Part shown: piece after piece, positions 486 to 22,579 of the stretch
Layout of the letters: every line of letters starts with the position of its first letter
Numbering within the stretch: position 1 is the first letter of the stretch
From: Thioalkalivibrio sp. HK1
Lineage (GTDB): Bacteria; Pseudomonadota; Gammaproteobacteria; HK1
Length of the DNA stretch: 49,195 nt
Direction: 5' to 3'
Assembly: GCA_000583135.1 (NCBI GenBank)
Contig: JFBG01000013.1
Coordinates: forward strand, 1-49,195
Notes under the pieces: model-generated
What the model saw: only the letters and a program-made list of their open reading frames with translations
What the model was told of the DNA's origin: nothing
The model's database searches: none
Translations under genes and position numbers: made by a program

Positions 486-1781
486 TCATAGCCCGCTGCC
501 CGAGGCTTCGGATACCTTCGGTACGGCATCCGTCTCATCGGCATCCCCCGAAAGGGACTTCGGCAAGATGCGCAGCAATCGAAGGGCGATCACGATGATC
601 AGCAAGGCCGACGCCACCCCGCCGAGTCCCAGCAAGAATTCCGGGAGGGTGGGGGAATAGCCCACGGGGTTGCCGTCGATCAAATCGCCCTCGATGATCT
701 CCTTGCCGGGAAAAATCTCGAGGGGCGCCGCCTGACCGCCGATGACGATGCCATGAAGCCAAGCAAAACCTCCGATAACGACCGCACCCGCCGCCAGGAC
801 GATCCTCTTCGCCGATGGCGGCTTTGCGATCAACCATGGAATGCCCAGCAGCAAGGCAAGCGGCGTCAAGGTCCCGAGCAGGATCTGTCCGATCCAGAAA
901 ATCGCCGGATGCAGCCCTCCGTCGATCAGCAAAAAGCGCTCTATCTCACCGTGCTCGGCGGCATAGAGATTGGTCAGGTGGCGCACGATCACGAAATACG
1001 AGGTCAGCGCCACGAAGATCCCCTGCAAGCGCGCCAACTGTCCGAGCGTTGCATCGAAGGCCGCTCCCGGTTGCGGCCGCTTCGCCCAATACGCCGTCGC
1101 ACAAAGCACCAAGATGAATACCGCCATGCCCGAAGAAAGCGACATCGCCACGAACAAGGGGGCCATGATCGCCGCATCGTAGGCTTGACGGGCGACCAAA
1201 AAACCGAAGATGCAACCGGTGCCGGTGGTCAACGCCAGGCGCCACGACAAGGCGACGATGCCGATCCCGCTGACCCATCTCGCCCTTTTCGGATCGCCGG
1301 CATCCGGGGCGAGCAACACCCCCAAATAGATTCCGCTCACGGTGATGAAAACGCTGTAGAGCATGACATTCCAAGCGAAAACGGATACGGGGTTGTAATG
1401 CGTCAGGGCGATGATCAGTCGGTCCGGTCGTCCGAGATCGAGCACCAACACCATCAACCCTCCCGCCAGCAGGGCGATCGCCATCACCGCCGAGAGCCGC
1501 GCCAAGGGGGTATATCGCTTGCGCTTGAAGACGGAAGAAAGCGATGCGATGTTGAGGGCGCCGGAGGCGGCGACGATCAGGAAAATCGCGAAGACATGGG
1601 GTAGCCCCCAAACGATGCGATTGTTCATGCCGGTGATATGGTGGCCTTCGCTGTCCATCGTATGCGCCGCTGCAAGGCCGGCGACGATGACGAGCAGCAA
1701 AGCGACGATCAACGCGATGAAGGGCCCGCTGCCGCGTCCGATCGTGCGGTATTCGGCATAAGAGATCTCGTGCGAGCCCAT
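486..1781 (-). CDS. dsrP: DsrP, NrfD-family membrane quinone-interacting subunit of DsrMKJOP
   Basis: This 431-residue protein has about ten hydrophobic helices and no cofactor-binding cysteine motif, as expected of the NrfD/PsrC family. In the DsrMKJOP complex DsrP is thought to exchange electrons between the quinone pool and the periplasmic subunits DsrJ and DsrO. The first helix begins near residue 20 (IALIVALLLVIVAGLAAAH). The tail after residue 415 is hydrophilic. It lies between dsrO and dsrN, the canonical order. The gap to dsrO is 180 bases, longer than elsewhere in the cluster, and I see no gene in it. Confidence 0.95.
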   Translation of the reverse strand: MGSHEISYAEYRTIGRGSGPFIALIVALLLVIVAGLAAAHTMDSEGHHITGMNNRIVWGLPHVFAIFLIVAASGALNIASLSSVFKRKRYTPLARLSAVMAIALLAGGLMVLVLDLGRPDRLIIALTHYNPVSVFAWNVMLYSVFITVSGIYLGVLLAPDAGDPKRARWVSGIGIVALSWRLALTTGTGCIFGFLVARQAYDAAIMAPLFVAMSLSSGMAVFILVLCATAYWAKRPQPGAAFDATLGQLARLQGIFVALTSYFVIVRHLTNLYAAEHGEIERFLLIDGGLHPAIFWIGQILLGTLTPLALLLGIPWLIAKPPSAKRIVLAAGAVVIGGFAWLHGIVIGGQAAPLEIFPGKEIIEGDLIDGNPVGYSPTLPEFLLGLGGVASALLIIVIALRLLRILPKSLSGDADETDAVPKVSEASGSGL

Positions 1782-1961
1782 CTTGCTATCGATCCTCCGG
1801 CCGGATCTTCATTCGATGGGGCGCTTGGCGAGCGTTTCGAGTCGGGCGACATCGCCGCGCAAGCGAACGATGCGGGCGCGCCGGCAGGTCCTCGATCGAT
1901 CGGTCTTCGATGGGCAAATCGATGGTGCGCATGCTTTGTCCTCGATCTTCGCCGTCGCCTC

Positions 1962-2864
1962 TCACACTCCGCGATAGAGAACCTTGGTATCGAGGGCGAG
2001 ATCGGGGCGCAACCCCTGGCCGCCCCTCTCGGCGATGGCTCTCGCCACCGGGTCTAGCGGATCGTTCAGATCGCCGAAGACCAATGCCCGATATCCCCTC
2101 GTGTCGCAGGCCTCGACGCAAGCGGGGCGCGCCCGACTCGCCGATCCCTCGCTTTCCTTGGACGCATCCAAGCGGTGCACGCAGAAATTGCATGATTCCA
2201 CCGTGCCCTTGCCTCTGGGGGACCAAGGCTTGGGATCGGTGACCTCCTCGTGCACGAAGGATCGCGCCTGGAAAGGACATGCCATCACGCAATAGCGACA
2301 GCCGATGCAGATATGTTTATCCACCAGCACGATCCCGTCGGCGCGTTTGAACGATGCTCCCGTGGGGCAAACATCCACGCAAGGCGGCTCCTCGCAATGC
2401 TGGCACATCAACGGCAAGGTGCTGATCCGACCGCTGCGGCGATCGAGCAAGGTGACCTTGCGGATCCATTGCGGGTCGGTGGCGATACCGTGTTCGGGCT
2501 CCAATCCATGCTCTTCGTTGCAAGCGCGAACGCAAGCATCGCAGCCCCTTGCGCACCGATCCGCATCCACGAAAAGACCGTAGCGAATCTTCGCGCCGAC
2601 CGGCTCGCCCGATGAACGCTCGTCGGCGATCGCCCGGGAGATGGCAAAGCCGCCGATACCCGAAACCGCCGCCAACGCCCCGATCCGTATCAGGAAATGC
2701 CTTCTGGCCTCGGTGGCCGGAGTCGATGGGTCGGCGGATTCTCGCTTGGCGAACAAGGCCTCGAAGGCCTCACCACTTTCGGAATCGCCACCGAGTCCTG
2801 CCCCCGAGGAGCCGAAAGACTCCTCCTTATCCCCCGGTGCCGGAAGGTCGTTCTCGCCCCTCAT
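1962..2864 (-). CDS. dsrO: DsrO, periplasmic iron-sulfur protein of DsrMKJOP
   Basis: DsrO is a ferredoxin-like electron carrier exported folded by the Tat system. With the start at 2864 it has 300 residues. A twin-arginine signal (ARRHFLIRI, arginines near 54-55) follows an unusually long polar leader and precedes a hydrophobic stretch. Four cysteine clusters follow: CARGCDACVRAC, CQHCEEPPCVDVC, CIGCRYCVMAC and CNFCVHR...C. They fit several [4Fe-4S] clusters as in DmsB/NrfC-type proteins. The start overlaps the end of dsrJ by 38 bases. An in-frame upstream extension to 3035 lies wholly inside dsrJ and was not used. Confidence 0.93.
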   Translation of the reverse strand: MRGENDLPAPGDKEESFGSSGAGLGGDSESGEAFEALFAKRESADPSTPATEARRHFLIRIGALAAVSGIGGFAISRAIADERSSGEPVGAKIRYGLFVDADRCARGCDACVRACNEEHGLEPEHGIATDPQWIRKVTLLDRRSGRISTLPLMCQHCEEPPCVDVCPTGASFKRADGIVLVDKHICIGCRYCVMACPFQARSFVHEEVTDPKPWSPRGKGTVESCNFCVHRLDASKESEGSASRARPACVEACDTRGYRALVFGDLNDPLDPVARAIAERGGQGLRPDLALDTKVLYRGV

Positions 2865-3405
2865 CGCCCCCCTCCTCCTCGAAAGCCACCTCGGGCAACG
2901 CCGAGTGGCAACCGAAGCAATCCGGCTCCACCGCCACATAAGCGTGGCAGCTCTCGCAAAACTGACCCGGGGCGTCGATCCGGATCCATTGCCCTCGGTC
3001 ATCGCGCGCCGCATGGCAATCGATGCATCCGGCAAGGCTATGGCGCTCTCGGCGAATGCCCAGATAGACGGTGCGATCCCGTTGATGCTCGAGCAGTTGC
3101 GGATGCCGCCGACGAATGACGGGGATCGGCTCGACGCAATGCTCCCCCAAACCCGCTTCGATCAGCTGCGGCCGCGGCACTCGATCCGACAAAGCCGATC
3201 CGGCGCTTCGTCCCGATGGCGTCGGCGAGACGGGCAAAATCATCTCGCCTCGCTCCTCGGATACCCGCTCTTCGGATACGCCCTTGGCGGAGAGGATCGG
3301 CAATCCCGCCACCGACAGCACTGCAAGCAGCATCCCGAGAGCGACCCAAGGCGCAAGAGAAAGAAAAAGTCGGGCTTTTCGACCCCCGTGATTTTCTTTT
3401 TCCAT
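2827..3405 (-). CDS. dsrJ: DsrJ, triheme cytochrome c of DsrMKJOP
   Basis: This 192-residue protein has an N-terminal membrane anchor (residues 12-38) and three heme-binding CxxCH motifs: C127-H131, C150-H154 and C163-H167. The family-typical stretch HCVEP...RRRHPQLL...HQRD.TVYLGIR...HSLAGC lies before the first heme. Cys90 corresponds to the cysteine that in known DsrJ acts as an unusual heme ligand. It carries electrons on the periplasmic face. Between the anchor and Cys90 there is a spacer with a short SEERVSEER duplication, which may be lineage specific. Confidence 0.95.
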   Translation of the reverse strand: MEKENHGGRKARLFLSLAPWVALGMLLAVLSVAGLPILSAKGVSEERVSEERGEMILPVSPTPSGRSAGSALSDRVPRPQLIEAGLGEHCVEPIPVIRRRHPQLLEHQRDRTVYLGIRRERHSLAGCIDCHAARDDRGQWIRIDAPGQFCESCHAYVAVEPDCFGCHSALPEVAFEEEGGDEGRERPSGTGG

Positions 3406-3453
3406 CGCGATCGAACTTCGACGATCTCGTATCGAGACGCTTCGGGCGCCGAA

Positions 3454-5409
3454 CTACTCGCCCATCCCCATATCGATATAGCCGCTCGGACAGACATCGG
3501 CGCAGATATGGCAGCCGATACATCGGGCATAGTCGGTATCGACATAACGCCCGGTGGTTCCCTGGTTTTTCTTGACCCGAAAGACCGCATCCTGGGGGCA
3601 GTAGATGACACAGTTATCGCATTCGAAACAAAGTCCGCAGCTCATGCAGCGACCCGCCTCGGCCACCGCTCGATCCTCGTCCAAGGGAACGATGCGCTCC
3701 TCGAAATGGCCGAGTACGGCGTCTCCTTGGGGCACTCGCTCGGCCCGCCGATGACGGGGGGTGTAGGTGAAATGCCCGAGAAAAAGCTCCTCGGCGGGAA
3801 CGATTTCATGGGCCGATCGATCCTCGTAGTTATGGATCGCATAGTTCGAAAAGCAGGTGCCCCATTCTTGACGGCGCTCGTATTCCTCGGGCTCCAAGTG
3901 TTGCTCGCGCAGTTTTTCCAGCAAACTGAAATGGTGCACATCCACCCTCGGCCGCTTCCTCTGATCCCCCCCGGATAGATATCGATCGATACAACTCGCC
4001 GCGACCGAGGCCTGACCGATCGCGGTGGTCAGCAAATGGGGGCGAATGATGTCGCCGGCCACGAAATGCCCCTCGCGATCGGGCACGCGATAGAAGGCGT
4101 CGGCATCGATCAGGCCGCGTCCGTTATCGAATTCCTCCAATCCCTCGAGATTGCCGCCCTGGCCGATCGCGCTGACCACCAAATCCGCCTCGATATCGAA
4201 TTCCGTCCCTTTACGCATCACCGGGCGACCGTCGATCAGATCGCACTTGGCCATTCGAAGGCTGCGGGCTCTGCCGTCCTCGCCGAGGATCACCTCCAAG
4301 GGCATCACCCCGTCGAAGATCCTCACCCCCTCTTGCATCGCATCCTCGACTTCGTTTTCCGCCGCGGTCATCTCTTGGCGTCCCAACAAGGAAGTCAAGG
4401 TGACATCGGCCCCGGTTCGTACCGCGGCCATCGCGGCGTCGTGAGCGACGAATCCGTGCACCGCCATCTCCGGCCGATCCTTGGGATTGGTGCGCTTGAT
4501 GCGACCCAAACGTCGGGCGACGGAAACGACATCGATCGAGGTATCGCCGCCGCCGATGCATACGACCTTCTCCGCCGTGAACTTGAGTCGACCGTCGTTG
4601 AAAGCCTCCAAGAACTTCACGCCGCTGACGCAGTTCGGAGCGTCTCCGCCGGGAACCGGCAAGGGCCGACCGCTTTGACAGCCGATGGTCCACAGCACGG
4701 CATCGTATTCGCGCTCGAGATCCGCAACGCGCATATCCTTTCCTACCCGCACATTCAGCCGGGTCTCGATCCCGCCCAAGGCGAGGATGCGATCGATCTC
4801 GTGATCGAGGAAGCGACGGGGGGTGCGATAGCCGGGGATGCCGTAGCGCATCATGCCCCCCAAGGCTTCGTGATCGTCGTGGATCGTGCAGCGATGCCCT
4901 CGGCGACGAAGCTGGTAGGCGGCGGTCAATCCCGCCGGGCCGCCGCCGATGATCGCGATCCCTTTCCCGCTTTCGGTCTCGGGAACGGGAAAGGAAAAAT
5001 CACAGCCGATCGCGGTATCGCCGATGTACTGCTCCACGGCATTGATGCCGACGAAATCCTCCACCTCGTTGCGATTGCAGCCATCCTCGCAAGGAGCCGG
5101 ACAGACCCGACCCATCTGCGACGGAAAGGGGTTGGCCTCGCTGAGCCGTCGGAAAGCGTATTCCTGCCAGCTCATCCCTTGGGGCGGTTTTTCCAGCCCG
5201 CGGACGATCTGCAACCAGCCCCTGATATCCTCGCCCGAGGGACAACTGCCCTGGCACGGCGGCGTGCGCTGCACATAAGTCGGGCATTTATGGGAATGAT
5301 CGGCATCGAAGATATTCGATTCCCAATTCGACCATCGATGCTCACCCTCCTTGAATTTACGGAAGGTGTGGTTGTCTTCCCGGTAGGTCTTGCTCCAAGG
5401 AGTCGCCAT
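3454..5409 (-). CDS. dsrL: DsrL, NAD(P)H:acceptor iron-sulfur flavoprotein
   Basis: The 651-residue protein resembles the small subunit of glutamate synthase. N-terminal cysteines (C42, C52, C56 and a VCPAPCEDGC cluster) bind Fe-S. An FAD-binding GGGPAGLTAAYQLRRRGH motif sits near residue 155, with a second dinucleotide-binding GGGDTSIDV further on. The C-terminal ferredoxin domain has CMSCGLCFECDNCVIYC and CIGCHICADVC. In sulfur oxidisers DsrL accepts electrons from DsrAB-dependent persulfide oxidation and reduces NAD(P)+. It lies between dsrK and dsrJ as usual. The 92-base gap to dsrK contains small GTTTCGGTGCCC direct repeats. Confidence 0.95.
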   Translation of the reverse strand: MATPWSKTYREDNHTFRKFKEGEHRWSNWESNIFDADHSHKCPTYVQRTPPCQGSCPSGEDIRGWLQIVRGLEKPPQGMSWQEYAFRRLSEANPFPSQMGRVCPAPCEDGCNRNEVEDFVGINAVEQYIGDTAIGCDFSFPVPETESGKGIAIIGGGPAGLTAAYQLRRRGHRCTIHDDHEALGGMMRYGIPGYRTPRRFLDHEIDRILALGGIETRLNVRVGKDMRVADLEREYDAVLWTIGCQSGRPLPVPGGDAPNCVSGVKFLEAFNDGRLKFTAEKVVCIGGGDTSIDVVSVARRLGRIKRTNPKDRPEMAVHGFVAHDAAMAAVRTGADVTLTSLLGRQEMTAAENEVEDAMQEGVRIFDGVMPLEVILGEDGRARSLRMAKCDLIDGRPVMRKGTEFDIEADLVVSAIGQGGNLEGLEEFDNGRGLIDADAFYRVPDREGHFVAGDIIRPHLLTTAIGQASVAASCIDRYLSGGDQRKRPRVDVHHFSLLEKLREQHLEPEEYERRQEWGTCFSNYAIHNYEDRSAHEIVPAEELFLGHFTYTPRHRRAERVPQGDAVLGHFEERIVPLDEDRAVAEAGRCMSCGLCFECDNCVIYCPQDAVFRVKKNQGTTGRYVDTDYARCIGCHICADVCPSGYIDMGMGE

Positions 5410-5501
5410 TTCGTTTCAATCTCTGAAAGGGTTTCGAAAAGGATGTCGGAAGGGTTTCGGTGCCCGATGTTTCGGTGCCCTGTGAAAAGTGCGAAGCGAT
5501 T

Positions 5502-6998
5502 TCAACGCTCGCCCAGCACGATCGCATCGCCCACCAGCTGATGAAGACTGAGCACCTGATCCATCGTGAACCCGTAAAAGGGCAGGACTTTCGAAAACTG
5601 GCTCTTGCAAATCGCGCAGATCGCCACGAGATGGGAAACGCGATGACGCCGGACGATTTCTTTGAATGCCTGCATGCGAGGCAAAGAGCCCTTGACCCGC
5701 AGTTCGACGAGATCGTCGGTCAACAACCCGCCCCCGCCTCCACAACAAAATGTTCGTTCGCCGGTGGCATCGGGGTCCATCTCGAAAACATGATTGCAGA
5801 CCGATCGCAGGACATCTCGGGGCAAAGCGAACTGACCGCCCGCCACCTCCCCCATCCTCGAGGCCCGCGCGATATTGCATGAATCATGGAAGGTGACCCG
5901 GCGCTCGTCGTTGGCGGACGGATCGAGGCGCAAAGCCCCGCGGGAAATCAGATCGTGGGTGACTTCGACGATATGCTGCGGCGCCGGATACTTCGGATCG
6001 AGGAAATCCAAAGGGCCGGCGAGGGTATCGAGAAAGTTATAGGCCACCCGCCAAGCATGGCCGCATTCTCCGAAGACGATTCGACGAGCGCCCAGATCCA
6101 AGGCCGCATCCCGGATACGCAAAGCGACCTTGCGCATATTTTCGTAGCTACCGATGAAAAGACCGAAGTTCGCAGCCTCCGAGGCCTTGGTGCTCAAAGT
6201 CCACCTGAGCCCCGCTTGGTGAAAGACCTTGGCATAGCCGATCAAGCCATCGACATGGGGCTCGGCGAAGAAATCCGCCGACGGCGTCACCAATAAAATA
6301 TCGGAATCCGCTTGATCCAAAGGCAGTCGGACCCGAACTCCGGTCTCCTCTTCGATATCCTCCTCCAAGCCCTCGAGGGTATGGGCAAGCGCAGGCTGCG
6401 GAAGCCCTAAGTTATTTCCGATCCTGTGCACCTTGCCGATGATTTCATTGCTGTATTTTTGCCCCATGCCGATGCTTGCGAGGATCTCCCGCCCGGCCAT
6501 CGAGACCTCCGCGGTATCGATGCCGTAAGGACAAAATACCGAACAACGTCGACATTGGGAGCATTGGTGAAAGTATCGATACCAATCGTCGAGCATCTCC
6601 TCGCTCAAGTCGGCGGCCCCGACCAGCTTCGGAAAAAACTTGCCCGCCAAGGTGAAATGACGTCGATAGACCTTGCGCAGCAGATCCTGTCTGCCGACCG
6701 GCATGTTTTTCGGATCCCCGGTGCCCAAAAAATAATGGCATTTATCGGTACACGCCCCGCATTTGACGCAAGCATCGAGAAAGACGCGAAATCCTCGATA
6801 TCGATGCAGCAGATCCCCCATTTTTTCGATCGCCCGATCGTGCCAGTCATCGACCAACTCCCCGGGGAAACCCAAGGCTCGTTGATGTTCGGGCTCGGCC
6901 ACAAAGGGACGGCTATGGCTCATCGCCCCTTCGACAAGCGCCGGAATCTGCGGCGCGGGCGGGATCGGAGGAGCCTCGAATGCCTTTTCCTTGCTCAT
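5502..6998 (-). CDS. dsrK: DsrK, catalytic HdrD-like iron-sulfur subunit of DsrMKJOP
   Basis: The 498-residue protein is related to HdrD and is the site proposed to act on the DsrC trisulfide or disulfide. Two [4Fe-4S] motifs are visible: C77-x2-C80-x2-C83-x3-C87 and C146-x2-C149-x2-C152-x3-C156. CCG-type motifs follow: FGECGHAWR, HDSCNIAR, FCCGGGGG and CAICKSQ, which fit a non-cubane cluster. The start ATG at 6998 overlaps the dsrM stop (ATGA). That coupling and the absence of similarity upstream decide against longer forms. Confidence 0.96.
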   Translation of the reverse strand: MSKEKAFEAPPIPPAPQIPALVEGAMSHSRPFVAEPEHQRALGFPGELVDDWHDRAIEKMGDLLHRYRGFRVFLDACVKCGACTDKCHYFLGTGDPKNMPVGRQDLLRKVYRRHFTLAGKFFPKLVGAADLSEEMLDDWYRYFHQCSQCRRCSVFCPYGIDTAEVSMAGREILASIGMGQKYSNEIIGKVHRIGNNLGLPQPALAHTLEGLEEDIEEETGVRVRLPLDQADSDILLVTPSADFFAEPHVDGLIGYAKVFHQAGLRWTLSTKASEAANFGLFIGSYENMRKVALRIRDAALDLGARRIVFGECGHAWRVAYNFLDTLAGPLDFLDPKYPAPQHIVEVTHDLISRGALRLDPSANDERRVTFHDSCNIARASRMGEVAGGQFALPRDVLRSVCNHVFEMDPDATGERTFCCGGGGGLLTDDLVELRVKGSLPRMQAFKEIVRRHRVSHLVAICAICKSQFSKVLPFYGFTMDQVLSLHQLVGDAIVLGER

Positions 6999-7777
6999 CG
7001 AGAGTCCTTCGAAGGCTCGGCGGGTACATCGGGCATCGAAGCGCTCGCCGATCGATCCTCGATCGGGGTCCATCTCGGTAGATGGCGACGCTCTCGGGGA
7101 TCGTCCGCTTGATTGCGGGTGGGGCTGAAAAAGAGCCCGGGGACATGGAGGAGTTTGCTGAACGGAAATATCGCCATCAGCGCCAGCGCCGAGACGATAT
7201 GCAGCAAGAGGATCGCATCGACAGGGATGGTCTGCCAATCGAAACGAACGAGCCCCAAGGTGAAGATCTTGAGTTCGACGATATCGGTCGGCAAAAACAA
7301 GCGCATAAAAACCCCGCTACCGGCGATGATCACCAGCAATGCGAGCATCAAGTGATCCGACGGCGCCGATATATAACGCACCCGATCCACGAATATGCGG
7401 CGCGCCCATAATCCGCCGAGCCCGACGAGCATCGCCAACCCGACCCATAGTGCGATCCCTTGAACGAGGGCCGCAGGCCACCAAGCAGGCTCGGTGAAAT
7501 ACCGAAGATGCCCGATGAGGGCGACTACCAAAGCGGCATGAAAAATCCACCCGAAAAGCCAAGTCCACTTCGAGGCCTTGAACAGGCTTTCGAAATAAAC
7601 GACTTCTCGAGCGAGCCGCAAGATCGTCCCCGAGCGGGTGGTGGGGGCGGGGGTGGTCGGGATTTTGAGCGGCGCCGGGGTGCGGGCGTACTGCAGGATC
7701 TTTCCCGCCACTCCCACCACCAAAATCAGTGCCGCAAGATAAAAAGCGATGGCGATGATCGAGGGCAGGACGAGCAT
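6995..7777 (-). CDS. dsrM: DsrM, heme b membrane subunit of DsrMKJOP
   Basis: This 260-residue NarI-like protein has five or six transmembrane helices, beginning with residues 4-25. Histidines inside helices (FHAALVVALIGHLRY, and HIVSALALM before FPFSKLLHVPG) can ligate two b hemes. It anchors DsrK and links it to the quinone pool. The tail after about residue 222 is polar. Its stop overlaps the dsrK start by ATGA. It is separated from dsrC by 291 bases, the longest gap in this dsr cluster. Confidence 0.94.
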   Translation of the reverse strand: MLVLPSIIAIAFYLAALILVVGVAGKILQYARTPAPLKIPTTPAPTTRSGTILRLAREVVYFESLFKASKWTWLFGWIFHAALVVALIGHLRYFTEPAWWPAALVQGIALWVGLAMLVGLGGLWARRIFVDRVRYISAPSDHLMLALLVIIAGSGVFMRLFLPTDIVELKIFTLGLVRFDWQTIPVDAILLLHIVSALALMAIFPFSKLLHVPGLFFSPTRNQADDPRERRHLPRWTPIEDRSASASMPDVPAEPSKDSR

Positions 7778-8025
7778 CGGATACTCGCTGATCCCTTAGG
7801 GGCCTTGCATCGAAAGCGATCGACGGCTTGGTTCGTCTTCGCCCCGACATCGAATATCGAGCGCTTGCCATGGCTCGCACCGGATTGCGAACGACGATGC
7901 GATGACGCGGTCAATCGCATCGTCGGCCCTCATGCTTCTCATCGACATGTCCACAGCGGGCAATCCCGAGCCAAACGTTCCCGAAGGGCGGCGCTGCGAG
8001 GATGTCGATCCCGCAAGCGAGGTTC

Positions 8026-8048
8026 CAAAAAAAGAGGATCCGATCACG
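8026..8048 (-). terminator. Possible weak terminator or attenuator between dsrC and dsrM
   Basis: On the minus strand a short GATCC...GGATC hairpin is followed by CTCTTTTTTT. The stem is only about five base pairs, so termination would be partial. It could let the abundant DsrC messenger stop early while some transcription continues into dsrMKLJOPN. This is inference from position and sequence only. Confidence 0.35.
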
Positions 8049-8068
8049 AGGATCGACGCCCGCTTTAT

Positions 8069-8401
8069 TTAGACGCAGCCCGTAGGCTTGGGCAATCCGG
8101 CATAGCGGCAAGCCTGTTTGGCCGGACCATAAGGATAGAGCTGATAGAGGTATCGGCTATTGCCCTTGTCCTGTCCGAGTTTTTTGCCGATCGCCTTGGT
8201 CAGCACGCGCACCGCGGGGGCGATTTGATATTCCTCGTAGTACTCGCGAAGAAAGTTGATCACCTCCCAGTGATTGTCCGTCAGCTCGCATTCGTCGGCA
8301 TCCGCCATCGCCTGCGCCACCTCCGGAACCCAATCGCCAAGATTCGAGAGATAACCCTCCTCGTCGGTATCCAAGGTCTTGCCATTGACTTCCAACGCCA
8401 T
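8069..8401 (-). CDS. dsrC: DsrC, sulfur-carrier protein
   Basis: DsrC carries sulfur as a persulfide or trisulfide between DsrEFH, DsrAB and DsrK in the cytoplasm. The 110-residue product has the family's flexible C-terminal arm ending QACRYAGLPKPTGCV. The two redox cysteines are Cys98 and the penultimate Cys109, eleven residues apart as in all active DsrC proteins. EVNGKTLDTDEEGYL at the start and GNSRYLYQLYPYGPAKQ before the arm are also typical. The ATG at 8401 is preceded by a GGAG-like site (AAGGAGAAGG). It follows dsrH. Confidence 0.97.
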   Translation of the reverse strand: MALEVNGKTLDTDEEGYLSNLGDWVPEVAQAMADADECELTDNHWEVINFLREYYEEYQIAPAVRVLTKAIGKKLGQDKGNSRYLYQLYPYGPAKQACRYAGLPKPTGCV

Positions 8402-8506
8402 GATTTCCTTCTCCTTACGTTCGTGGTTGCGCAGTTGCGCCGGGCGGCTCGATTTCAAAATGGGAGATCGACCTTCGAAACCCATGCCGAGATCGAGCCC
8501 GAGCAC

Positions 8507-8815
8507 TCAAAGCCATGCCTGTACATTATCGTGCTCCACGACCAAGTCGACAAATCCGGCATCGTCCACCGAGCCCACTCCCTCGATCAGGGCATCTTCG
8601 GATATCCCGCGCGCTCGGCAATCGTTTTCCAAGACATGAATTCGAAGGCGCTTCAATGCCCTGCGAATGCGAGGCTCGATCGAACTCGCCCGCATCGCGG
8701 CATAGACCCCGTCTTCGATCAACAACAACGTGCTGCCATCGAGCGCATGGGACAGGCAACTATCGAGAGCGTTCTTCTCGAAGGGCGATTTATTGACGGT
8801 ATGCAATACGGGCAT
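8507..8815 (-). CDS. dsrH: DsrH, subunit of the DsrEFH sulfurtransferase
   Basis: The 102-residue protein is TusB-like. Cys20 in the motif LDSCLSHALDGSTLLLIEDGVYAA is at the position of the conserved DsrH cysteine. DsrE2F2H2 is a cytoplasmic hexamer that passes sulfur to DsrC. DsrEFH is found in sulfur oxidisers and not in dissimilatory sulfate reducers, which supports an oxidative role for this cluster. It sits between dsrF and dsrC. Confidence 0.94.
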   Translation of the reverse strand: MPVLHTVNKSPFEKNALDSCLSHALDGSTLLLIEDGVYAAMRASSIEPRIRRALKRLRIHVLENDCRARGISEDALIEGVGSVDDAGFVDLVVEHDNVQAWL

Positions 8816-8889
8816 CGAGGGTGTTCTCGTTTCATTGCGACCAAGCGGCGGACGGGGGCGGGGGGTGAATCCTCGGGGGTTTGGATGGG

Positions 8890-9300
8890 CTAGAAATTGA
8901 ATACCACGTCCTGGGCGTCGATGAGCCGCCCGATCTCCTTGCGATCCACGATCACGATGGATGATTTTTCCGCCCAATCATCGTTTTCATCCTCGTATCG
9001 AAGCGGCATCAAGTCCTCTTCTCGAAGGCCCCGCTCATCCAAGGATTCGCGCTCGACATAGAGCCGGGTGACGTCGTAATCGCCCAGCGCCCGCCAAGCG
9101 GGCGAGAAATTCTTCATCCCGACGGCGGATGTATCCTGGCCCGCTTTGAGCTGATAGACCCCGTCATCGACGAACGCCATGCACACATCCTGATCGAAGG
9201 CGGCCCCGATCAGCACCACCTCCAATCCCTCCTGCGCATAGACCGTTCCATAAGGAGCGCGCCGATGGAGGTACATGATTTTTTTGCATTGCCCGGCCAT
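8890..9300 (-). CDS. dsrF: DsrF, subunit of the DsrEFH sulfurtransferase
   Basis: The 136-residue protein is TusC-like: KKIMYLHRRAPYGTVYAQEGLEVVLIGAAFDQ is followed by the DDGVYQLKAGQDT loop. It is the structural partner of DsrE and DsrH in the hexameric sulfurtransferase. The ATG at 9300 places the first beta strand near residue 7, as in the family. An open frame extends to 9501 but that part runs inside dsrE and shows no similarity. Confidence 0.93.
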   Translation of the reverse strand: MAGQCKKIMYLHRRAPYGTVYAQEGLEVVLIGAAFDQDVCMAFVDDGVYQLKAGQDTSAVGMKNFSPAWRALGDYDVTRLYVERESLDERGLREEDLMPLRYEDENDDWAEKSSIVIVDRKEIGRLIDAQDVVFNF

Positions 9301-9338
9301 CGATCCCCATCTCGTCCCTTGTCTCGCCCTTCGCTGCG

Positions 9339-9731
9339 TCAATCGCCGAAAGTGACCAGCCGATCGCATTCGATCGCGGCTTCCACCAACTGACCGAGCC
9401 CGGAAATCCGAAATCCCGGGGCGATGTTGTCGGCATCCTTGGCGTTTCTTTTGGCCTCGTCGGGATCGCATATACCGCGTCTTTGGGCGGCGGCCACGCA
9501 CAGCACGAGATCCACACCGTGAGTCCTGGCCAATTCACTCCATCTTTGCTGAATATGCCGATCGTCTTGGGGCGGGGTCATCAAACGAGTGCCGTTGTTG
9601 ACCCCGTCGTGATAGAAGAACACGCGAAAAATCTCATGCCCCTTGGCAAGGGCGGCGCAGGCGAAGCGATAGGCGCTATCCGCCGCCTGATGTTGGTAAG
9701 GGCCCTCGTTGACCAGCAATCCGATTTTCAT
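9339..9731 (-). CDS. dsrE: DsrE, catalytic subunit of the DsrEFH sulfurtransferase
   Basis: The 130-residue TusD-like protein begins MKIGLLVNEGPYQHQ. Cys78 in DLVLCVAAAQRRGI is the active cysteine that carries persulfide sulfur before transfer to DsrC; its number matches Allochromatium DsrE. The ATG at 9731 is preferred over 9743 because the family begins with this beta strand. It lies directly downstream of dsrB. Confidence 0.95.
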   Translation of the reverse strand: MKIGLLVNEGPYQHQAADSAYRFACAALAKGHEIFRVFFYHDGVNNGTRLMTPPQDDRHIQQRWSELARTHGVDLVLCVAAAQRRGICDPDEAKRNAKDADNIAPGFRISGLGQLVEAAIECDRLVTFGD

Positions 9732-9764
9732 CGTTCTTGGCATCCGCTTGATCGATACGAATCG

Positions 9765-10838
9765 TCAAAATCTCAGGTGCGCCGAGGCGTTGAGGCTCTT
9801 GCGCGAGCCCCGCCAGTTATCGATATGGAATTTCGTGAACGGCAACTCGGTCAACTCGAAAAAGCGCGGCCAGCCGATACGATCGATCCAATCGTTGATC
9901 CGCTCCCAATCGCGAGCGTCCTCTTTATAGGCGCGCAGGATATTTTTGACGACCGCCGTCGCCTCCGGCCATCTGGGGGGATTGTTCGGAATTCCGGCCG
10001 CGACCAACTTCTGAAACGAGGGCTTGCTGCGAGCGTTGGAATGATTGCCCCCCACCCATATCGCGAGTTTCGAGTGCTCGGGATCATTGATCTGCATCGG
10101 AGTGCAAGGGGGATAGCAGGCTCCGCAACATATACATTTCTTCTCGTCGACTTCCAAAGAGGGCTTGCCGTTGACCATTGCCGGACGGATGGCGGCGACC
10201 GGACAACGCGCCACCACCGAAGGGCGCTCGCAGATATTCGCCACCAAGTCGTGATTGATCTTCGGCGGCTTCGTATGCTGGATATTGATCGCGATATCCC
10301 CCTGACCGCCGCAGTTGATCTGGCAGCAGGAGGTGGTGATATGCACCCGATTGGGCATTTCGGCATTGCGAAACTCGTCGATCAGCTCGTCCATCATGGC
10401 CTTGACGACGCCGGAGGCGTCGGTGCCCGGGATATCGCAGTGGAGCCAGCCTTGGGTATGGGAAATGAAGGCGACGGTATTTTGAGTGCCGCCGACGACG
10501 AAACCCTCGGCTTCCAAGGCTTCGATCAAAGGATCGACCTTCTCTTGCCGATCGACCATATATTCGATATTGCTGCGAATGGTGAAGCGAACATGGCCAT
10601 CTGCATAGCGATCACCTAAATCGCAAAGTTTTCGCAGCGTGAAAACATCCAGAATACGCTGGGTGCCGACCCGCACCGTCCAGACCTCGTCGCCGCTCTC
10701 GGCGACATGACAAAGCACTCCGGGGCGAGGGTGGGTGTGGTATTTCCACTGCCCGAAATTGCGCACCATCGTCGGGTGCATGTACTGAAATCCGTCGGGG
10801 CAGCCGGATTCGATCGGCATGCGATGTTTTTGCGCCAT
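9765..10838 (-). CDS. dsrB: DsrB, reverse dissimilatory sulfite reductase beta subunit
   Basis: The 357-residue protein pairs with DsrA in a cytoplasmic alpha2beta2 siroheme enzyme that here oxidises sulfane sulfur to sulfite. Cysteines C171, C172 and C176 (SCCQINCGGQGD) belong to the cluster-siroheme region. A ferredoxin domain follows with C235, C238, C241 and C245 (KKCICCGACYPPC). N- and C-terminal family stretches (HPTMVRNFGQWKYHTHPRPG; WERINDWIDRIGWPRFFE) are intact. A purine-rich AGGGAAGA precedes the ATG at 10838. Confidence 0.97.
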   Translation of the reverse strand: MAQKHRMPIESGCPDGFQYMHPTMVRNFGQWKYHTHPRPGVLCHVAESGDEVWTVRVGTQRILDVFTLRKLCDLGDRYADGHVRFTIRSNIEYMVDRQEKVDPLIEALEAEGFVVGGTQNTVAFISHTQGWLHCDIPGTDASGVVKAMMDELIDEFRNAEMPNRVHITTSCCQINCGGQGDIAINIQHTKPPKINHDLVANICERPSVVARCPVAAIRPAMVNGKPSLEVDEKKCICCGACYPPCTPMQINDPEHSKLAIWVGGNHSNARSKPSFQKLVAAGIPNNPPRWPEATAVVKNILRAYKEDARDWERINDWIDRIGWPRFFELTELPFTKFHIDNWRGSRKSLNASAHLRF

Positions 10839-10999
10839 CTTCGATCTTCCCTCTTTATGCGTGTTTTTCGGGCCCTTGTTTCAAGGCCTTCTCGTCGATT
10901 CTCTATCGTCGGGAGCGGCAAGATGCGATACCGAAATCCGAGATTTCGTTTTCAATCGATACCGATATCGATATCGACCTCGATCCGGCTCCGACGACT

Positions 11000-12307
11000 C
11001 TAAGCCGCCGATTGATCGGATGCCTTCTCGCCCTTCGGCGACGCATCCTTGGTCTTTGCGGCAGTCTGACGGCGATCGAACCACTTCGCCGCCTCCTCGT
11101 CCCAATCATCGGTGCGCACATAAGAACTCTCGCGCGGATGAGCGATCATGTTGGGATCCGGCTCCAAGCCGATCCCTTCGAGGAAGTTGACCAACCCGAT
11201 ACGCTCGATCATCTCCCCGGTGCGTTCGTGCTCGAGGGCGTTCTCGGCGAAGAAATCGATCGTCTCCTCGGCGATCTCCACGATGCGGGCGTAATCCTCT
11301 TTGGTTTCGAGCCTCATGAAAGGCACGATCACGGTGCCGAAAAGATCGCCGATCTTGAGGGTGCGCTTGCCCCCGATCAGAATGGACACCCCCTTTTCAT
11401 CCCCCGGGGAAAGGCATTTCGGCATCACGTTCAGGCAGTGCATGCAGCGCACGCAGTTGCGGTTATCGACCTCGAGGCTATCGTCATCGGCCAAGGACAG
11501 GGCATTGGTCGGGCAGCGGGTGATCACGTTGTCGATGAGATATTTACGTCCCTTGCGCTCGATATAGGCCTTCACCTCAGCCTGATCGACCTTCATATCG
11601 TCCCGCCACGTGCCGATCACCGCGAAATCCGCCCGCTCGATCGAATTCATGCAATCGTTCGGACAGCCCGAGACCTTGAATTTGAATTTATAAGGCAACG
11701 CCGGACGATGGACATCGTCGACGAAGTTATTGACCAAGGAACGATGGATGGCGTGCTCGTTACAACAGGATTGTTCGCAGCGAGCCGCCCCCACGCAGGA
11801 TTGCGCGGTGCGCACGCAAGGGCCCGCCCCTCCCAAGTCGAATCCGTAATCGTTGATCTCGTCGAAGAAATGCTGGGTGTTTTCGGTATCGGCGCCGATA
11901 AACATGATATTGCCGGTCTGACCATGAAAGGTCACCAGCCCCGAACCCCATTTTTCCCACGAATCGGCGAGTTTGCGCAAGATATCGGTGGTGTAGTGAT
12001 TGCCCGCCGGAGGTTGTACGCGCAGGGTATGGAATTCGCGCGATTTGGGATATTGATCGCCGACCTCGGAAAAACGGGGAATGATGCCCCCGCCATAGCC
12101 GTAGACGCTGACCGTTCCGCCTTTCCAATAGCCGCGCCGGGTCTCGTAGGAGTGCTCGAGCTGACCCAGGAGATCATTGGCCATTGCATTGATTCGGCCC
12201 TCTTCATGATCGTCCCGCAGGCGTTTGATGCCGGAGATGAAACTCGGCCATGGTCCTTGTTCGAGCTGATCCAGCATGGGAGTGTCGTGCTTTTTCATGG
12301 CGTTCAT
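11000..12307 (-). CDS. dsrA: DsrA, reverse dissimilatory sulfite reductase alpha subunit
   Basis: The 435-residue protein contains the coupled siroheme-[4Fe-4S] ligands as C171-x5-C177 and C215-x3-C219 (VSGCPNDC), and a ferredoxin insert with C285, C288, C291 and C298. It is the first gene of the cluster and is preceded by AGGAGG. That site lies 3 bases before the ATG at 12307 and 12 before a second in-frame ATG at 12298; the protein from 12298 (MKKHDTPMLDQLEQGPW) looks most like other DsrA starts, so either is possible. The C-terminus carries a lysine- and serine-rich tail. The 161 bases before dsrB hold alternating GATATC/ATCGAT sequence. Confidence 0.97.
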   Translation of the reverse strand: MNAMKKHDTPMLDQLEQGPWPSFISGIKRLRDDHEEGRINAMANDLLGQLEHSYETRRGYWKGGTVSVYGYGGGIIPRFSEVGDQYPKSREFHTLRVQPPAGNHYTTDILRKLADSWEKWGSGLVTFHGQTGNIMFIGADTENTQHFFDEINDYGFDLGGAGPCVRTAQSCVGAARCEQSCCNEHAIHRSLVNNFVDDVHRPALPYKFKFKVSGCPNDCMNSIERADFAVIGTWRDDMKVDQAEVKAYIERKGRKYLIDNVITRCPTNALSLADDDSLEVDNRNCVRCMHCLNVMPKCLSPGDEKGVSILIGGKRTLKIGDLFGTVIVPFMRLETKEDYARIVEIAEETIDFFAENALEHERTGEMIERIGLVNFLEGIGLEPDPNMIAHPRESSYVRTDDWDEEAAKWFDRRQTAAKTKDASPKGEKASDQSAA

Positions 12308-13986: not shown

Positions 13987-14409
13987 TTATCGCTTTTTCA
14001 AATCATCGAGCAAACGGATCGGCTCGCCGTGAGGGGAGGCGATCGCCGCCGCCTCCCATTGCGAGCGCCTAGCTTCTCGCTGCTCGAAAGATATCAACTC
14101 CACCTCGGCAAGAAGCCCCTCCAAGGCCGCAAGCCAGTGTTCGTAATAGCCTTTTGGCTTCGATGAGCCGTCGGCGGATGCGATCTCGCGGGCGAGGGCA
14201 TCGGCCCACCGCTGCCATGTAAAAACCCCGCGTTCGTGCAAAGCCACGACCATCGCAAAGGCTTGGGCCTCCCATGGCGCTTGGAATAGCGGACCATCGT
14301 CATCGCGGGGAATCGCGGGCAAGGATTCAAGATCGGCAATCGCCGACGCCATCGGATTCGACGGCTCGATCGCCGATATCGCGGGGGGTTCGGGCTCAAA
14401 CGGACTCAA
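13987..14409 (-). CDS. Nitrile hydratase accessory protein (P14K/NhlE-like activator)
   Basis: The 140-residue protein resembles the N-terminal half of the nitrile hydratase beta subunit: APWEAQAFAMVVALHERGVFTWQRWADALAREI and GYYEHWLAALEGLLAE. Such proteins escort the alpha subunit during cobalt insertion. The beta stop overlaps its start, and the best start is a TTG at 14409 ([10 protein letters not shown] follows); an ATG at 14442 would overlap beta further. It is the last gene of the operon. Confidence 0.85.
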   Translation of the reverse strand: MSPFEPEPPAISAIEPSNPMASAIADLESLPAIPRDDDGPLFQAPWEAQAFAMVVALHERGVFTWQRWADALAREIASADGSSKPKGYYEHWLAALEGLLAEVELISFEQREARRSQWEAAAIASPHGEPIRLLDDLKKR

Positions 14410-15073
14410 GGTGAGGCTCCCAAAGATCGAGACGAACGACATCGCGGGCAACGGCCCCTTCGCCCCATAACTCCTCGGCCGTGAACTCCACGTTGTAGAG
14501 GTGTTCGCCCTCGCCCTTTCCCAAGCCCTGCGCATTGGTATCGGCAAAGATATGCGCCCCTCGGCATTCGCGTACGATGCCGCAACGACCGCGGGCGTAG
14601 CGCGGCAAGCGGGTGTGCCCGATCGGGTGGTGGTTGCGGGCGCGCACCCGATCGCCCAAACGAAAACGCGGCGATCGCTCGGTCGGCACGGAAACGGAAG
14701 ACCCTTGCGCGAAGGCGGCGAGCACCTGATCGGCATTCATCGCCGCCGGGGCATCGGGCACCGGCGATGCGCGCGAAAGATCCCCTCGCATTCGAGCCTC
14801 GATCTCCTGCACACTTATCAATCCGCTTTCGACCAACAAGGTCTCCAATCCGTGCAGCCAGTGTTCGTAGTAGCCGGTGCTCAGGTATTCATCGGGCTTC
14901 ATCCGCTCCCGGGCATGGCGCGACATATCGAGATTCCAACGCTTGGTAAACGCGGCGGCGAGGGTGATGGCGAAGCATCGGCGCTCCCACTCATGGGCGA
15001 AGATCGGCTCGTTTGGATCGGGATCGATCGGGCCGAATCCGTGCATGCCTCCCAAGTCGTGGGCACCGTTCAT
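14396..15073 (-). CDS. nthB: Nitrile hydratase beta subunit
   Basis: The 225-residue protein begins [16 protein letters not shown], a hallmark of the beta subunit. It continues with [24 protein letters not shown] and the C-terminal SH3-like barrel ([27 protein letters not shown]). It closes the active site over the metal bound by alpha. Both halves are fused, which separates it from thiocyanate hydrolase, whose alpha and beta subunits correspond to separate halves. The ATG overlaps the alpha stop (ATGA). Confidence 0.93.
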
Positions 15074-15747
15074 CGTCCATCTCCTTGGCCTCGCCTTGCG
15101 GCTTCGGGGGGATTCGGGGATTCGACGATCCCCACCCCGATCATCGCATCGCGGGTGACCAGCGCCGCCAGCGCCTCCTCGTCGAGATCCTCGGTACCGG
15201 CCGGACGACGCGGCAAAACGAGGTAGCGCATCTCCGCGGTGCTGTCCCAAACCCGGATTTCGACCTCATCTGGGATCCGCAATCCGAATTCCTTCAGCAC
15301 CCCTCGAGGATCGGATACCGCGCGGGCGCGATAAGGGGCCGATTTATACCAAGTCGGGGGCAAACCGAGCGTGGGCCACGGATAGCAGGAACAAAGGGTG
15401 CAGACCACGAGGTTATGCACCCGCTCGTCATTGACCACCACCTGCGTATGCTCGCCTTGGCGCCCTTGGAAACCGAGCTCCGCGATGGCCGAGGTGGCAT
15501 CTTCGAGCAACCGCTGTCGGTATTGCGGGTCGGTCCAAGCCTTTGCGACCACCCTCGCCCCGTTGCGCGGCCCGACCCGGGTCTCGTAGTTCTCGATGAT
15601 CGCATCGAGCGCCGCCGGATCCACCAAACCCTTCTCGACGAGCAAGGATTCCAAGGCCCGCACCCGAAGTTCCGTATCGCAAAGGCGGGGCTCGTCGTGC
15701 GATCCCGAATCGTGATGATGGTGATGGTGATGATGGTCACTGCTCAT
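15070..15747 (-). CDS. nthA: Cobalt-type nitrile hydratase alpha subunit with poly-His N-terminus
   Basis: The enzyme hydrates nitriles to amides in the cytoplasm. The metal site is C116-T-L-C119-S120-C121; threonine at the second position marks the cobalt type, while serine is usual in iron enzymes. The 225-residue protein starts MSSD followed by eight histidines (residues 5-12), a natural metal-binding leader. [25 protein letters not shown] and [13 protein letters not shown] are typical. The upstream in-frame extension to 15828 lacks similarity, so the ATG at 15747 is used. First gene of a three-gene operon. Confidence 0.93.
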
Positions 15748-16098
15748 CCGCGCGATGCTCCCGCAGGTTTTGACCGCCACGTCGATCCTTGGCCTCGGGC
15801 CTTGCCTGTCCATTCGAATTCTGGGCAACGGAAACGTCCGAGATGATCCGCACCCATCGATTTTCGGCGAACTCCATCAGGCTTCGATCCGAAGGCGCTG
15901 CCAAAGGGGAATGGATTTCCCCCGAGGGTCGAAGCGGATCGAGTCCGGCGGCACGACGACCGGATCGCCATGATCGCTCGGTGCCGATGGCAAGACCCTC
16001 GATGCGCTCGAGGGCCTTGATGGATCCTCAGAAACCTACCCGCGTGGGTATAGACGCACCGCCCTTGACCTACTCTTCGAACCCAAGCCTTGGCCAAA
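15748..16098. other. Intergenic region upstream of nitrile hydratase
   Basis: No supported gene. It must hold the nitrile hydratase promoter and the 3' end of the proline-rich protein transcript, but I see no clear boxes or strong hairpin. Confidence 0.4.
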
Positions 16099-17103: not shown

Positions 17104-17620
17104 CTTTTCGATGAGCGATCTTCGAAGCGTGCATCCGAAGATCGATGATTGGCGGGAATACGATCGAGGCGATGTCAATCATACCCATTTTGCACACGAT
17201 AACTATAATGAAAAATTCGAGCGGGCAAGACGATCGTACCGAAAGAGACAACGATGCTTCATCGATCCCATGAATCCAAGGGATATCTTCGAAGGAGATC
17301 GGCATGAATCGTCTACCGACGATACCCGCCTGATCCGATCCTCGGCATCCGCCGCTCGAGTCCACGATGCGATGACGCCATGAATCCACCGCCACTCGCC
17401 GCCATTGCCCACCATCCGAATCATCCGATAAAAGCCGAATAAGCGGCAAGGCACCTTGGCTTCTAGCAAGACAATGCGAACATGGCTCGGATCGCCTCGA
17501 TAGCAGGCGAGACGGCCTCGACGCCTAAGATCCCTCGTTCCATGCCCCGAAAGATTCGCACCCTCATCGGCAAAAGGGACAATCCCGACCACCGCCTTCG
17601 CCACCTACGGAGATCTCCCG
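17104..17620. other. Divergent intergenic region
   Basis: It separates the proline-rich protein from the selenoprotein gene. A TATAAT lies at 17204-17209 (plus) without a good -35 box. Frames on both strands look non-coding. Confidence 0.4.
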
Positions 17621-18577
17621 ATGAAAGACCCCTCATCGACAACGCGCCCATCCGGATCGAAACCGGTCGATTACATCCGCCGCACCAAGGAACGATACGA
17701 TGCCTTGGGCTACCCCCCTTATCGCTGGGTGCATAACGAAGACCCGCCACCCTTTTCGCCCTTTTCCAAAGCGCTCCCCGAGGCGCGCATCGGATTGATC
17801 GCATCGGGCGGGATCTACCTCGAAGGGCAGATCGCCTTCCATCACCGGGACGATGCAAGTTTCAGACTGATCCCCGAAAACACCGCCGGTAACGACCTTC
17901 GCATCACGCATTTCGCCTACGACACCGGCGATGCCCGCATCGATCCCGGGGTCGTCTTCCCCCTCGCCCGACTGCGCGATCTGGCACGAGAGGGCGTGAT
18001 CGGAGGGCTCGCCGCCAACGCCTGCACCTTCATGGGGGGCATCTATTCCTCCCGCAAGGTGAGAGATGCGCTGGCACCGGCGCTTGCGGATCGCATGCAA
18101 GCCGAATCCGTCGATGCCGTGATGCTGGTTCCGGCCTGACCCGTCTGCCATCAGTCCGTGGGATTGATCGCACGCGAGATCGAGGCCCGAGGGATCCCGA
18201 CCCTTTGCTTTTCGAGCGCCCGCTCCATCACCGAGGCGGTCCACCCGCCCCGAGCCGTCTTCCTTGATTTTCCGCTCGGGCACACCACCGGCAAAGCGGG
18301 GGATCCGAGCCTGCAGCGCGATATCATGCTCGCAGCATTGGAGGCGCTGACCACCATCGACACCCCGGGGACCATTCTCGACCTACCTTGGAGATGGGAC
18401 GAAGACGATGCTTGGAAAAAAGACGCCGAGAACGAGGGCGACCTGCGCAGCGAACGCACCGACGAGCCGCAGTACCAACACGAATCGGATCGCATCGCCG
18501 CCCAAGCCATGCTCGAACGAGAGGGCTGCGCCGTCGGCTGCGTCTTTCCCGAAGCCGGGACCGCGAGGGGAACATGA
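17621..18577 (+). CDS. Selenoprotein B (GrdB/PrdB-like) family reductase with in-frame UGA (selenocysteine 173)
   Basis: Reading through the TGA at 18137-18139 gives one 318-residue protein. The codons before and after stay in frame and both parts are family-like: ADRMQAESVDAVMLVPA before and PVCHQSVGLIAREIEARGIP after. The UGA therefore lies in a U173-x-x-C176 redox motif, where homologues have Sec or Cys. The second half carries RAVFLDFPLGHTTG and GDPSLQRDI, seen in proteobacterial relatives of glycine/betaine/proline reductase B subunits. A hairpin suited to a bacterial SECIS follows the UGA. GGAGA precedes the ATG. The substrate is unknown; no grdA or grdC partner is adjacent. A nonsense mutation of Cys is the alternative. 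Confidence 0.82.
18150..18168 (+). promoter_or_regulatory. Candidate bacterial SECIS hairpin
   Basis: Ten bases after the UGA, ATCAGTCC (18150-18157) pairs with GGATTGAT (18161-18168) around a GTG loop, with one G-U pair. Distance and size fit SelB-dependent bacterial SECIS elements, which lie inside the coding region just after the UGA. Loop identity cannot be judged without folding. Confidence 0.55.
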
Positions 18578-18683: not shown

Positions 18684-18720
18684 AAAAAAAAAAGCCGGAG
18701 CGGGGGGAACCCGCTCCGGC
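18684..18720 (-). terminator. Strong intrinsic terminator
   Basis: On the minus strand an 11-bp GC-rich stem, GCCGGAGCGGG paired with CCCGCTCCGGC (18694-18720), is followed directly by ten T residues (18684-18693). There is no T run on the plus side, so it terminates minus-strand RNA. Confidence 0.85.
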
Positions 18721-21338: not shown

Positions 21339-22389
21339 TCATTTTTTTGATCCTCTAAAGATCAGAATCTCATGAGAATCTTTCACGTTATTAAATGTCC
21401 CATTATTAATACGATTCTTTCCGATTCTCGTCTCGCCTTGTCCCATCGTATATTGCCACTCAACCCGACGAATGTCACAAGATGAGTACCATTCTCGGAT
21501 GACATCACAATCGTTATAGGACATCAAGAAACCACCTTCATGATCCAAAAGTAGATCGCGTAATGCTCGATGATCGAATCCATCATGATGAACCGGGAAA
21601 TTCCTCTGAGGATAAATACCTCGAAACATCTTGCTGTTTCCATGCAGATAGTAGGGAGGATCGCAATATAGAAAATCACCTTTGTGCTGTGGCAATGACT
21701 TTTCGAACGATCCTTGCCTAACCTTTAGACTCTTCGCATCGAAGTGACGCACTTTATCAACGAGACGCTTATATCTATTGGGACATTCGTATATTTTTGA
21801 TATCCAGCCCAGAAAACCCGGGCCATAAGATAGGCCAATAGTGAGCCGCCAAGAGAGTCTTGTCCTTTATCTTACACTCTCCTCGCCAGTGCGACTTAAG
21901 GCGATCTTTTACTTCCTTGTAAGTATCTTGGCTCGGCTGCCACTGCATGAGCGTATCCGCCAACTCTTCCGGCTTACTGATCTGCACCTGCCAATACTGG
22001 CAGAGAATCGCAAAGATATCATATGAGATCACCGGCAACCCCAGTTCACGCGCAAGAGCGATCTCAACCGATCCGCCTCCCATAAAAGGTGATACGACCA
22101 TTTCTATGTTAGCAGGTATTGATTCTACGATAAGGCCAACGGCAAGACTTTTGCCGCCCGCATAGCGCAAAGGAGACTGGGTATATCTCTTATAGGGATT
22201 CTTGCCGGTACTGGCCAACCGAGAGAGAAACAAGTCACGCCTGCATTGCCGTGTGTTCCACTCGGGGGCTTCACACATGATATCGATCAACGCACTGTAC
22301 GGCCGAGCACCATGAGAGAAGTGTTTTCTGATCGGCCTTGCAAGATCTGTCATCTGTCCATCATCCTCGGCAGATTTCTCAAGAGTCAT
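21339..22389 (-). pseudogene. D12-class DNA adenine methylase, frameshifted
   Basis: Two overlapping frames make one Dam-like enzyme. The first (to a stop at 21775) has YTQSPLRYAGGKS, the cofactor motif SPFMGGGSVEIA and the start of the target domain. The second resumes with SYGPGFLGWISKIYECPNRYKRLVDKV and carries the catalytic DPPY (FLYCDPPYYLHG) and a normal C-terminus. The frames switch near 21,840, at the TAT-T-GGC boundary, consistent with one extra T or two lost bases. It may be a mutation or a sequencing error, since the rest is well conserved. The start is the ATG at 22389, after GGAA. Confidence 0.8.
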
Positions 22390-22579
22390 CACGCATTCCT
22401 TCGTGTGATTTTACATATAAAGTCCATGCATTGGGAATGGACAGTCTCTCTTCGGGCGATCATCCGCACCCATCTCGTCACCGAATCTCACCTCCCGCCT
22501 CAAAAAATCCGTTAGGCCGGGGCGATGGATATTACTAGCGAAGATACAAGTGCATATCATGTATCCGCTTCTTGCGCCG

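Follow-up and report, generated by a model that had tools for sequence, protein, structure and literature searches.

A predicted PrdB-like selenoprotein encoded apart from any detected PrdA in a sulfur-oxidiser genome

The selenogene and its surroundings

We analysed a stretch of 49,195 nucleotides (the window) from a genome of 3.46 Mb in 114 contigs. Its main features are collected in Table 1. At the centre of the analysis stands a gene for a PrdB-like protein, referred to here as the selenogene, whose ATG follows a GGAG at a spacing of 8 bases and whose TGA falls at the first position of a U-P-V-C motif.

Table 1. Features of the window that bear on the selenogene.
Feature	Position	Strand	Basis or remark
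PrdB-like selenoprotein gene	17621..18577	+	318 codons/residues plus stop; single internal TGA
Likely ribosome-binding site GGAG	17609..17612	+	Sequence; putative function
N-terminal module, residues 15-41	17663..17743	+	Conserved in the clade, not in authentic PrdB
In-frame TGA, predicted selenocysteine 173 (U of UPVC)	18137..18139	+	TGA or TGC/TGT at every locus read; sel genes
TGC, Cys176, second residue of the UxxC pair	18146..18148	+	Invariant in a 26-row alignment
SECIS hairpin, 8 bp, loop GUG (18158-18160)	18150..18168	+	Folding and covariation across relatives
C-terminal extension, residues 260-318	18398..18574	+	Authentic PrdB stops short of it
Nitrile hydratase beta (14396-15250) and alpha (15070-15828)	14396..15828	-	Neighbour, not thought part of the system
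dsr genes A, B, E, F, H, M, K, L-like, O, P	486..12304	-	Sulfur-oxidation context, outside the system

The dsr set comprises genes whose products scored above the profile cut-offs (DsrA, B, E, F, H, K and O) or below them (M and P), together with an L-like oxidoreductase. Genes dsrEFH mark sulfur oxidisers, and by its gene content the source of the window is one, as the original prediction had it. Nitrile hydratase lies about 1.8 kb from the selenogene on the opposite strand. Ten neighbours of the selenogene in the window, both nitrile hydratase genes among them, were found in none of 52 neighbourhoods of relatives (up to 20 kb, many shorter), while the selenoprotein itself gave one match per neighbourhood in the same search. 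Because of its strand, its distance and this absence, nitrile hydratase offers no evidence of function and is probably a chance neighbour. The gene had been described as standing alone beside nitrile hydratase: it does appear to stand alone, and the nitrile hydratase genes are near, but they do not recur beside the relatives.

Several smaller observations were made nearby. The nitrile hydratase alpha protein has a natural stretch of eight His close to its start, as well as a CTLCSC motif. A simple scan of the selenogene strand found no promoter-like site. Just downstream of the selenogene, on the minus strand, lies a strong terminator-like hairpin (18694-18720, 11 bp, 10 T). Further on, a D12-type DNA adenine methyltransferase gene (21339-22392, minus strand) looks split, as it is spread over two adjacent open reading frames.

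Residue 173 was compared among homologues, of which 177 were found and 120 listed. Among the 120 listed, 85 end at query residue 172 and 30 carry a Cys aligned to residue 173; the others have Thr (three) or Trp (one), or are unaligned at the site (P0088). The three close homologues with Thr (P0002, P0007 and P0008) keep Cys176 in a TPVCHQ motif. The one with Trp (P0021), whose source is unclear, was perhaps translated under a code in which TGA means Trp.

At the nucleotide level, the codon was read at 32 of 38 places outside the window in a first set, giving 20 TGA, 12 TGC/TGT and no other codon; the remaining six were all reported without an internal stop. A later set, from a search that included the order of genome G091, gave TGA at all 28 places read, a count that leaves aside one locus (L119) stopping short of the site. 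Two plasmid copies from Alphaproteobacteria have TGC at this codon, and three PrdBs on Firmicutes-type plasmids have TGA but in the motif UGTCHR. All five genomes of the window's genus carry TGA at the identical codon. Against the four congeners, pN/pS was 0.33-0.38 for the part preceding the TGA and 0.35-0.39 for the part following it, with dS near saturation; this similarity indicates like protein constraint on both halves of the gene. The TGA is thus bridged by one open frame and sits in a U-x-x-C motif, both of which had been predicted, and it alternates with Cys among homologues as expected of a bacterial selenoprotein gene.

Recoding signal and selenocysteine machinery

Folding of the mRNA recovered the hairpin that had been expected, with eight base pairs and a start ten bases past the TGA (-16.7 kcal/mol for 45 nt). 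With the U of UGA numbered 1, the stem joins positions 14-21 to positions 25-32. Taken alone, the window hairpin is mildly unusual, with z-scores of -1.88 (45 nt) and -0.75 (54 nt), and 3.2% of synonymous recodings matched it on energy and pairs together. Covariation was assessed over 21 Sec loci including the window (17 distinct rows). In a 7-pair helix, 85.7% of cells were paired and five pairs had changes on both sides. The covariation score was 0.641 versus at most 0.101 in six slid registers, and none of 500 shuffles reached 0.641. Two other, less decisive measures were equalled more often, in 22 of 500 shuffles for pairs changed on both sides and in 352 of 500 for further pair types. Evidence for the hairpin is therefore strong across the relatives and mild for the window sequence alone, and a SECIS stem-loop just past the UGA, another mark of bacterial selenoprotein genes, is in place.

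The loop region was compared at 49 Sec loci, which take in the window and nine B-type paralogues (described below). Positions 20-24 from the U of UGA read CCGTG (42), CCGGG (5) or CCGTC (2), so that CCG at positions 20-22, in the loop, occurs at 49/49 Sec loci; it occurs at 2/14 Cys loci (L067 and L081). Residue +7 is Val (44) or Gly (5) in the 49 Sec proteins, and Thr (4), Val (4), Gln (2) or one of Ile, Ser, Ala and Cys in the 14 Cys proteins. The pattern fits a residue held in place by the RNA, one that drifts only once Sec is gone. Together, the loop rule and this residue illustrate cleanly how a SECIS can shape the protein.

The machinery for selenocysteine was sought in the window genome, and selA, selB, selC and selD were all present. 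The tRNA-Sec gene (selC) lies on contig C37 (73.6 bits), and ARAGORN likewise calls it, with anticodon tca; selB and selA adjoin it. The selD gene lies on contig C9 as a match free of stops. The Rfam tRNA-Sec model also matches tRNA-Ser: all 17 genomes of the window's order matched at E 0.001 and 12 of them above the cut-off. ARAGORN called tRNA-Sec in nine of the 17; in the remaining eight it called the best match tRNA-Ser, and three of these eight barely exceed the Rfam cut-off. A TGA-containing relative (E 1e-15) was found in exactly the nine tRNA-Sec genomes and in none of the other eight. This co-occurrence is of limited weight because of relatedness, the nine genomes spanning three genera and the other eight spanning five. 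One of the nine (G669) has the B-type paralogue only.

By these marks the window gene is a real selenoprotein gene, with its TGA predicted to be read as selenocysteine. Neither outcome named beforehand as refuting, a genome without selABCD or homologues without Sec/Cys at the site, was observed. The chance that the TGA is a genuine stop codon, or arose through sequencing error, leaving a broken gene or a protein of 172 residues, appears negligible: although the sequence comes from a single assembly and its own hairpin is only mildly unusual, the same TGA recurs throughout the genus and in many other genomes, constraint is alike on its two sides and the sel machinery is complete.

Kinship with PrdB and GrdB

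Among curated families, the best match of the window protein was PrdB (TIGR04483), at 148.3 bits and below the equivalog cut-off of 300; two PrdBs encoded beside prdA scored 424.7 and 406.7 bits on the same model. The GRDB domain (PF07355) was matched above its cut-off (33.2 bits versus 22, E 4.5e-8) over the C-terminal part of the model only. The GrdB model (TIGR01918) gave 50.8 bits, below its cut-off of 65.45. Here the alignment covers only model positions 261-422 of 431, that is, the last third including the Sec region shared with GrdB/GrdF/GrdH selenoprotein B, and the first 260 positions have no counterpart in the window protein. No thioredoxin-fold family was matched in the profile searches. 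Identity to PrdB was 35% over 218 gap-free residues, with a Sec in UxxC and the GRDB domain in common. The kinship to GrdB and PrdB that had been proposed is supported.

The window protein nevertheless departs from PrdB in several ways. Its motif is UPVCHQ where PrdB has UGTCHR, it falls under the curated cut-off, no PrdA was found with it, and it has additional parts at both ends. PrdB, at 241 residues, starts at about residue 25 of the window numbering, lacks the conserved N-terminal residues and ends near residue 259. Proteins with the UPVCHQ motif, which we call the A type, conserve P15, Y18, Y26, G30, Y34 and W36 in the N-terminal part and W265 and K266 in the C-terminal part, to which the window's own branch adds PQ-Y/F-Q. 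The structure model of the window protein has a pLDDT of 91, and the PDB searches made found no close fold or solved relative.

On a quickly built tree that carried a long-branch warning, three PrdBs, the A type and a B type (UPxCTR/S, about 400 residues) were separate with long branches between them. At least four changes between Sec and Cys were required. The B type is a second PrdB-like selenoprotein (L058-L065 and L070) whose long C-terminal part is of unknown family. Three copies occur in G658, a genome from the window's genus, and none was seen in the window's own genome.

Characterised PrdB and GrdB enzymes operate with a pyruvoyl-bearing partner. Such partners (PrdA/GrdE, PF09338) gave no hits in the window's own genome or in any of the 17 genomes of the order, in a search run without a positive control; the model scores 80 and 93 bits on authentic PrdA. 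GrdA (PF04723) likewise gave no hits in the own genome, in a search without a working positive control. To the extent of these searches, the statement that no grdA- or prdA-type gene neighbours the selenogene agrees with the data.

Neighbourhoods of relatives and proposed function

A match to the selenogene was found in 30 of 36 genomes from the order of G091, which belongs to the same class as the window. At six of these loci, from three genera (L132; L133-L134; L135-L137), the selenogene lies directly behind five same-strand genes for an amine-dehydrogenase heavy chain, MauE, MauD, a light chain and a CxxCH protein. This gene order was derived by clustering, with families scanned on L135 and on the L132 heavy chain only. 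At L135 the matches were PF06433, PF07291, MauD (194 bits, cut-off 188.6) and PF02975, and the CxxCH protein had no hit. Both chains score under the methylamine-dehydrogenase equivalog cut-offs (heavy chain 138 versus 454, light chain 180 versus 197), so a specific amine cannot be assigned. At L132-L134 the next gene past the selenogene is on the other strand. At L135-L137 two more same-strand genes follow (DUF1302; LolA-like/DUF1329), and the selenogene may therefore lie outside the amine-dehydrogenase unit. The gene order at L132-L137 resembles that of the aromatic amine dehydrogenase cluster aauBEDA-orf2-orf3 of Alcaligenes faecalis (heavy chain, E, D, light chain, cytochrome, next gene); unlike that cluster, the window genome has no light-chain gene.

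The association is confined in its extent. A light chain occurs in 29 of the 36 genomes of G091's order and in 0 of the 17 of the window's order. The selenogene accompanies 8 of 43 light-chain loci, all in the three genera and two of them weak matches, and is absent from the flanks of the other 35 (up to 1.5 kb on each side). A further locus from the second genus (L138, another genome) has no amine-dehydrogenase genes beside the selenogene. In a phylum sample of 398 genomes, apparently one draw, 12 light-chain genomes and 16 selenogene carriers had no overlap. As a clue to amine metabolism, the link is local and does not generalise. Other neighbours were CoA-transferase III beside one Sec form (L075) and, by clustering, beside four Cys forms, an FAA hydrolase beside L067, and a class III aminotransferase beside L184.

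We give a probability of about 55% to the reading that the window protein is a member of a PrdB-like clade where predicted Sec173 and Cys alternate, and that it is a stand-alone cytosolic reductase without pyruvoyl PrdA. By analogy, its likely function would be to reduce a C-N or similar bond with Sec or Cys. GrdB and PrdB chemistry consists of selenolate attack, resolution by Cys and recycling by thioredoxin. Following this scheme, SelB and tRNA-Sec would read the UGA through the hairpin; the Sec173 selenolate would attack a carbon-heteroatom bond in a small substrate, most likely C-N as the GrdB/PrdB homology suggests; Cys176, given the invariant UxxC, would resolve the adduct as a Se-S bond with release of the reduced product; and thioredoxin or a similar dithiol may restore the enzyme. 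More speculatively, the N- and C-terminal parts absent from PrdB could replace some roles of PrdA, such as substrate binding. Because the relatives in three genera sit directly behind amine-dehydrogenase genes, the likely setting would be amine or amino-acid breakdown.

The other readings concern what such a protein does. It could use the PrdB fold as a thiol-type redox enzyme that reduces peroxides or disulfides and not C-N bonds. UxxC is a general redox motif, no pyruvoyl partner turned up in the uncontrolled search, and L128 is neighboured by DsbA-like, nitroreductase and, by eye, glutathione-transferase-like genes, with the same three at L131 by clustering. We still think this unlikely, as the homology is to C-N reductases, thioredoxin-fold families went unmatched and none of 44 clustered loci has a conserved antioxidant neighbour. 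Far less probable is that the protein is a D-proline reductase whose PrdA gene lies in another part of the genome. In favour of this, TIGR04483 is the best curated match and JGI calls many relatives D-proline reductase PrdB, but the score is about half the cut-off and far below those of PrdBs beside prdA, the clade is separate and has extra terminal parts, and the uncontrolled search for PF09338 found it in none of the order's 17 genomes.

Extending the stand-alone reductase reading, the clade may form a selenoenzyme family of its own, in which a pyruvoyl-free PrdB-fold reductase has its active site completed by the terminal additions and takes part in amine breakdown beside amine dehydrogenase in oxygen-living proteobacteria. 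We regard this extension as tentative and rather doubtful. If it were true, the 'proline reductase' that ranks as a leading selenoprotein of the oceans would largely be this enzyme, misnamed, and the family would be a main reason for keeping selenocysteine machinery in the window's order. A PrdA-less Sec clade outside amino-acid-fermenting Clostridia would in itself amount to a new chemistry of selenium, and database entries named D-proline reductase would need correcting; the amine-dehydrogenase genes beside some relatives provide a first testable class of substrate.

The gene had been taken for an unexpected outpost of a clostridial family. This was not supported: the phylum of the window has relatives in several of its families, and Sec-containing 'PrdB' is among the commoner selenoproteins of marine metagenomes. 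It ranked third in abundance among the families of a Sargasso Sea set, with 42 genes (PMC1088965), had 235 members in GOS, where the table places them under pfam07355 (PMC2398784), and accounted for 6.4% of the selenoprotein genes in a more recent marine data set (PMC9402790); a Sec 'proline reductase' was also reported in Anaeromyxobacter and a Geobacter (PMC1794560). The accessible parts of these four papers contain no discussion of an absent PrdA. As described there, the marine 'proline reductase PrdB' (PMC1088965, PMC2398784, PMC9402790) is likewise a Sec-containing UxxC protein. On these sources, counts of Sec 'PrdB' in the sea go back to 2005, and the window gene adds a variant to a known kind of selenoprotein.

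Two prdB genes on plasmids were also noted among the loci. One, from Peptoclostridium acidaminophilum (L183, 5935-6648), has no prdA listed within 6 kb in an incomplete gene table. The other lies in a prd cluster of Ligilactobacillus salivarius (L187, 5007-5732), has an in-frame TGA (UGTCHR) and is found near yedF.
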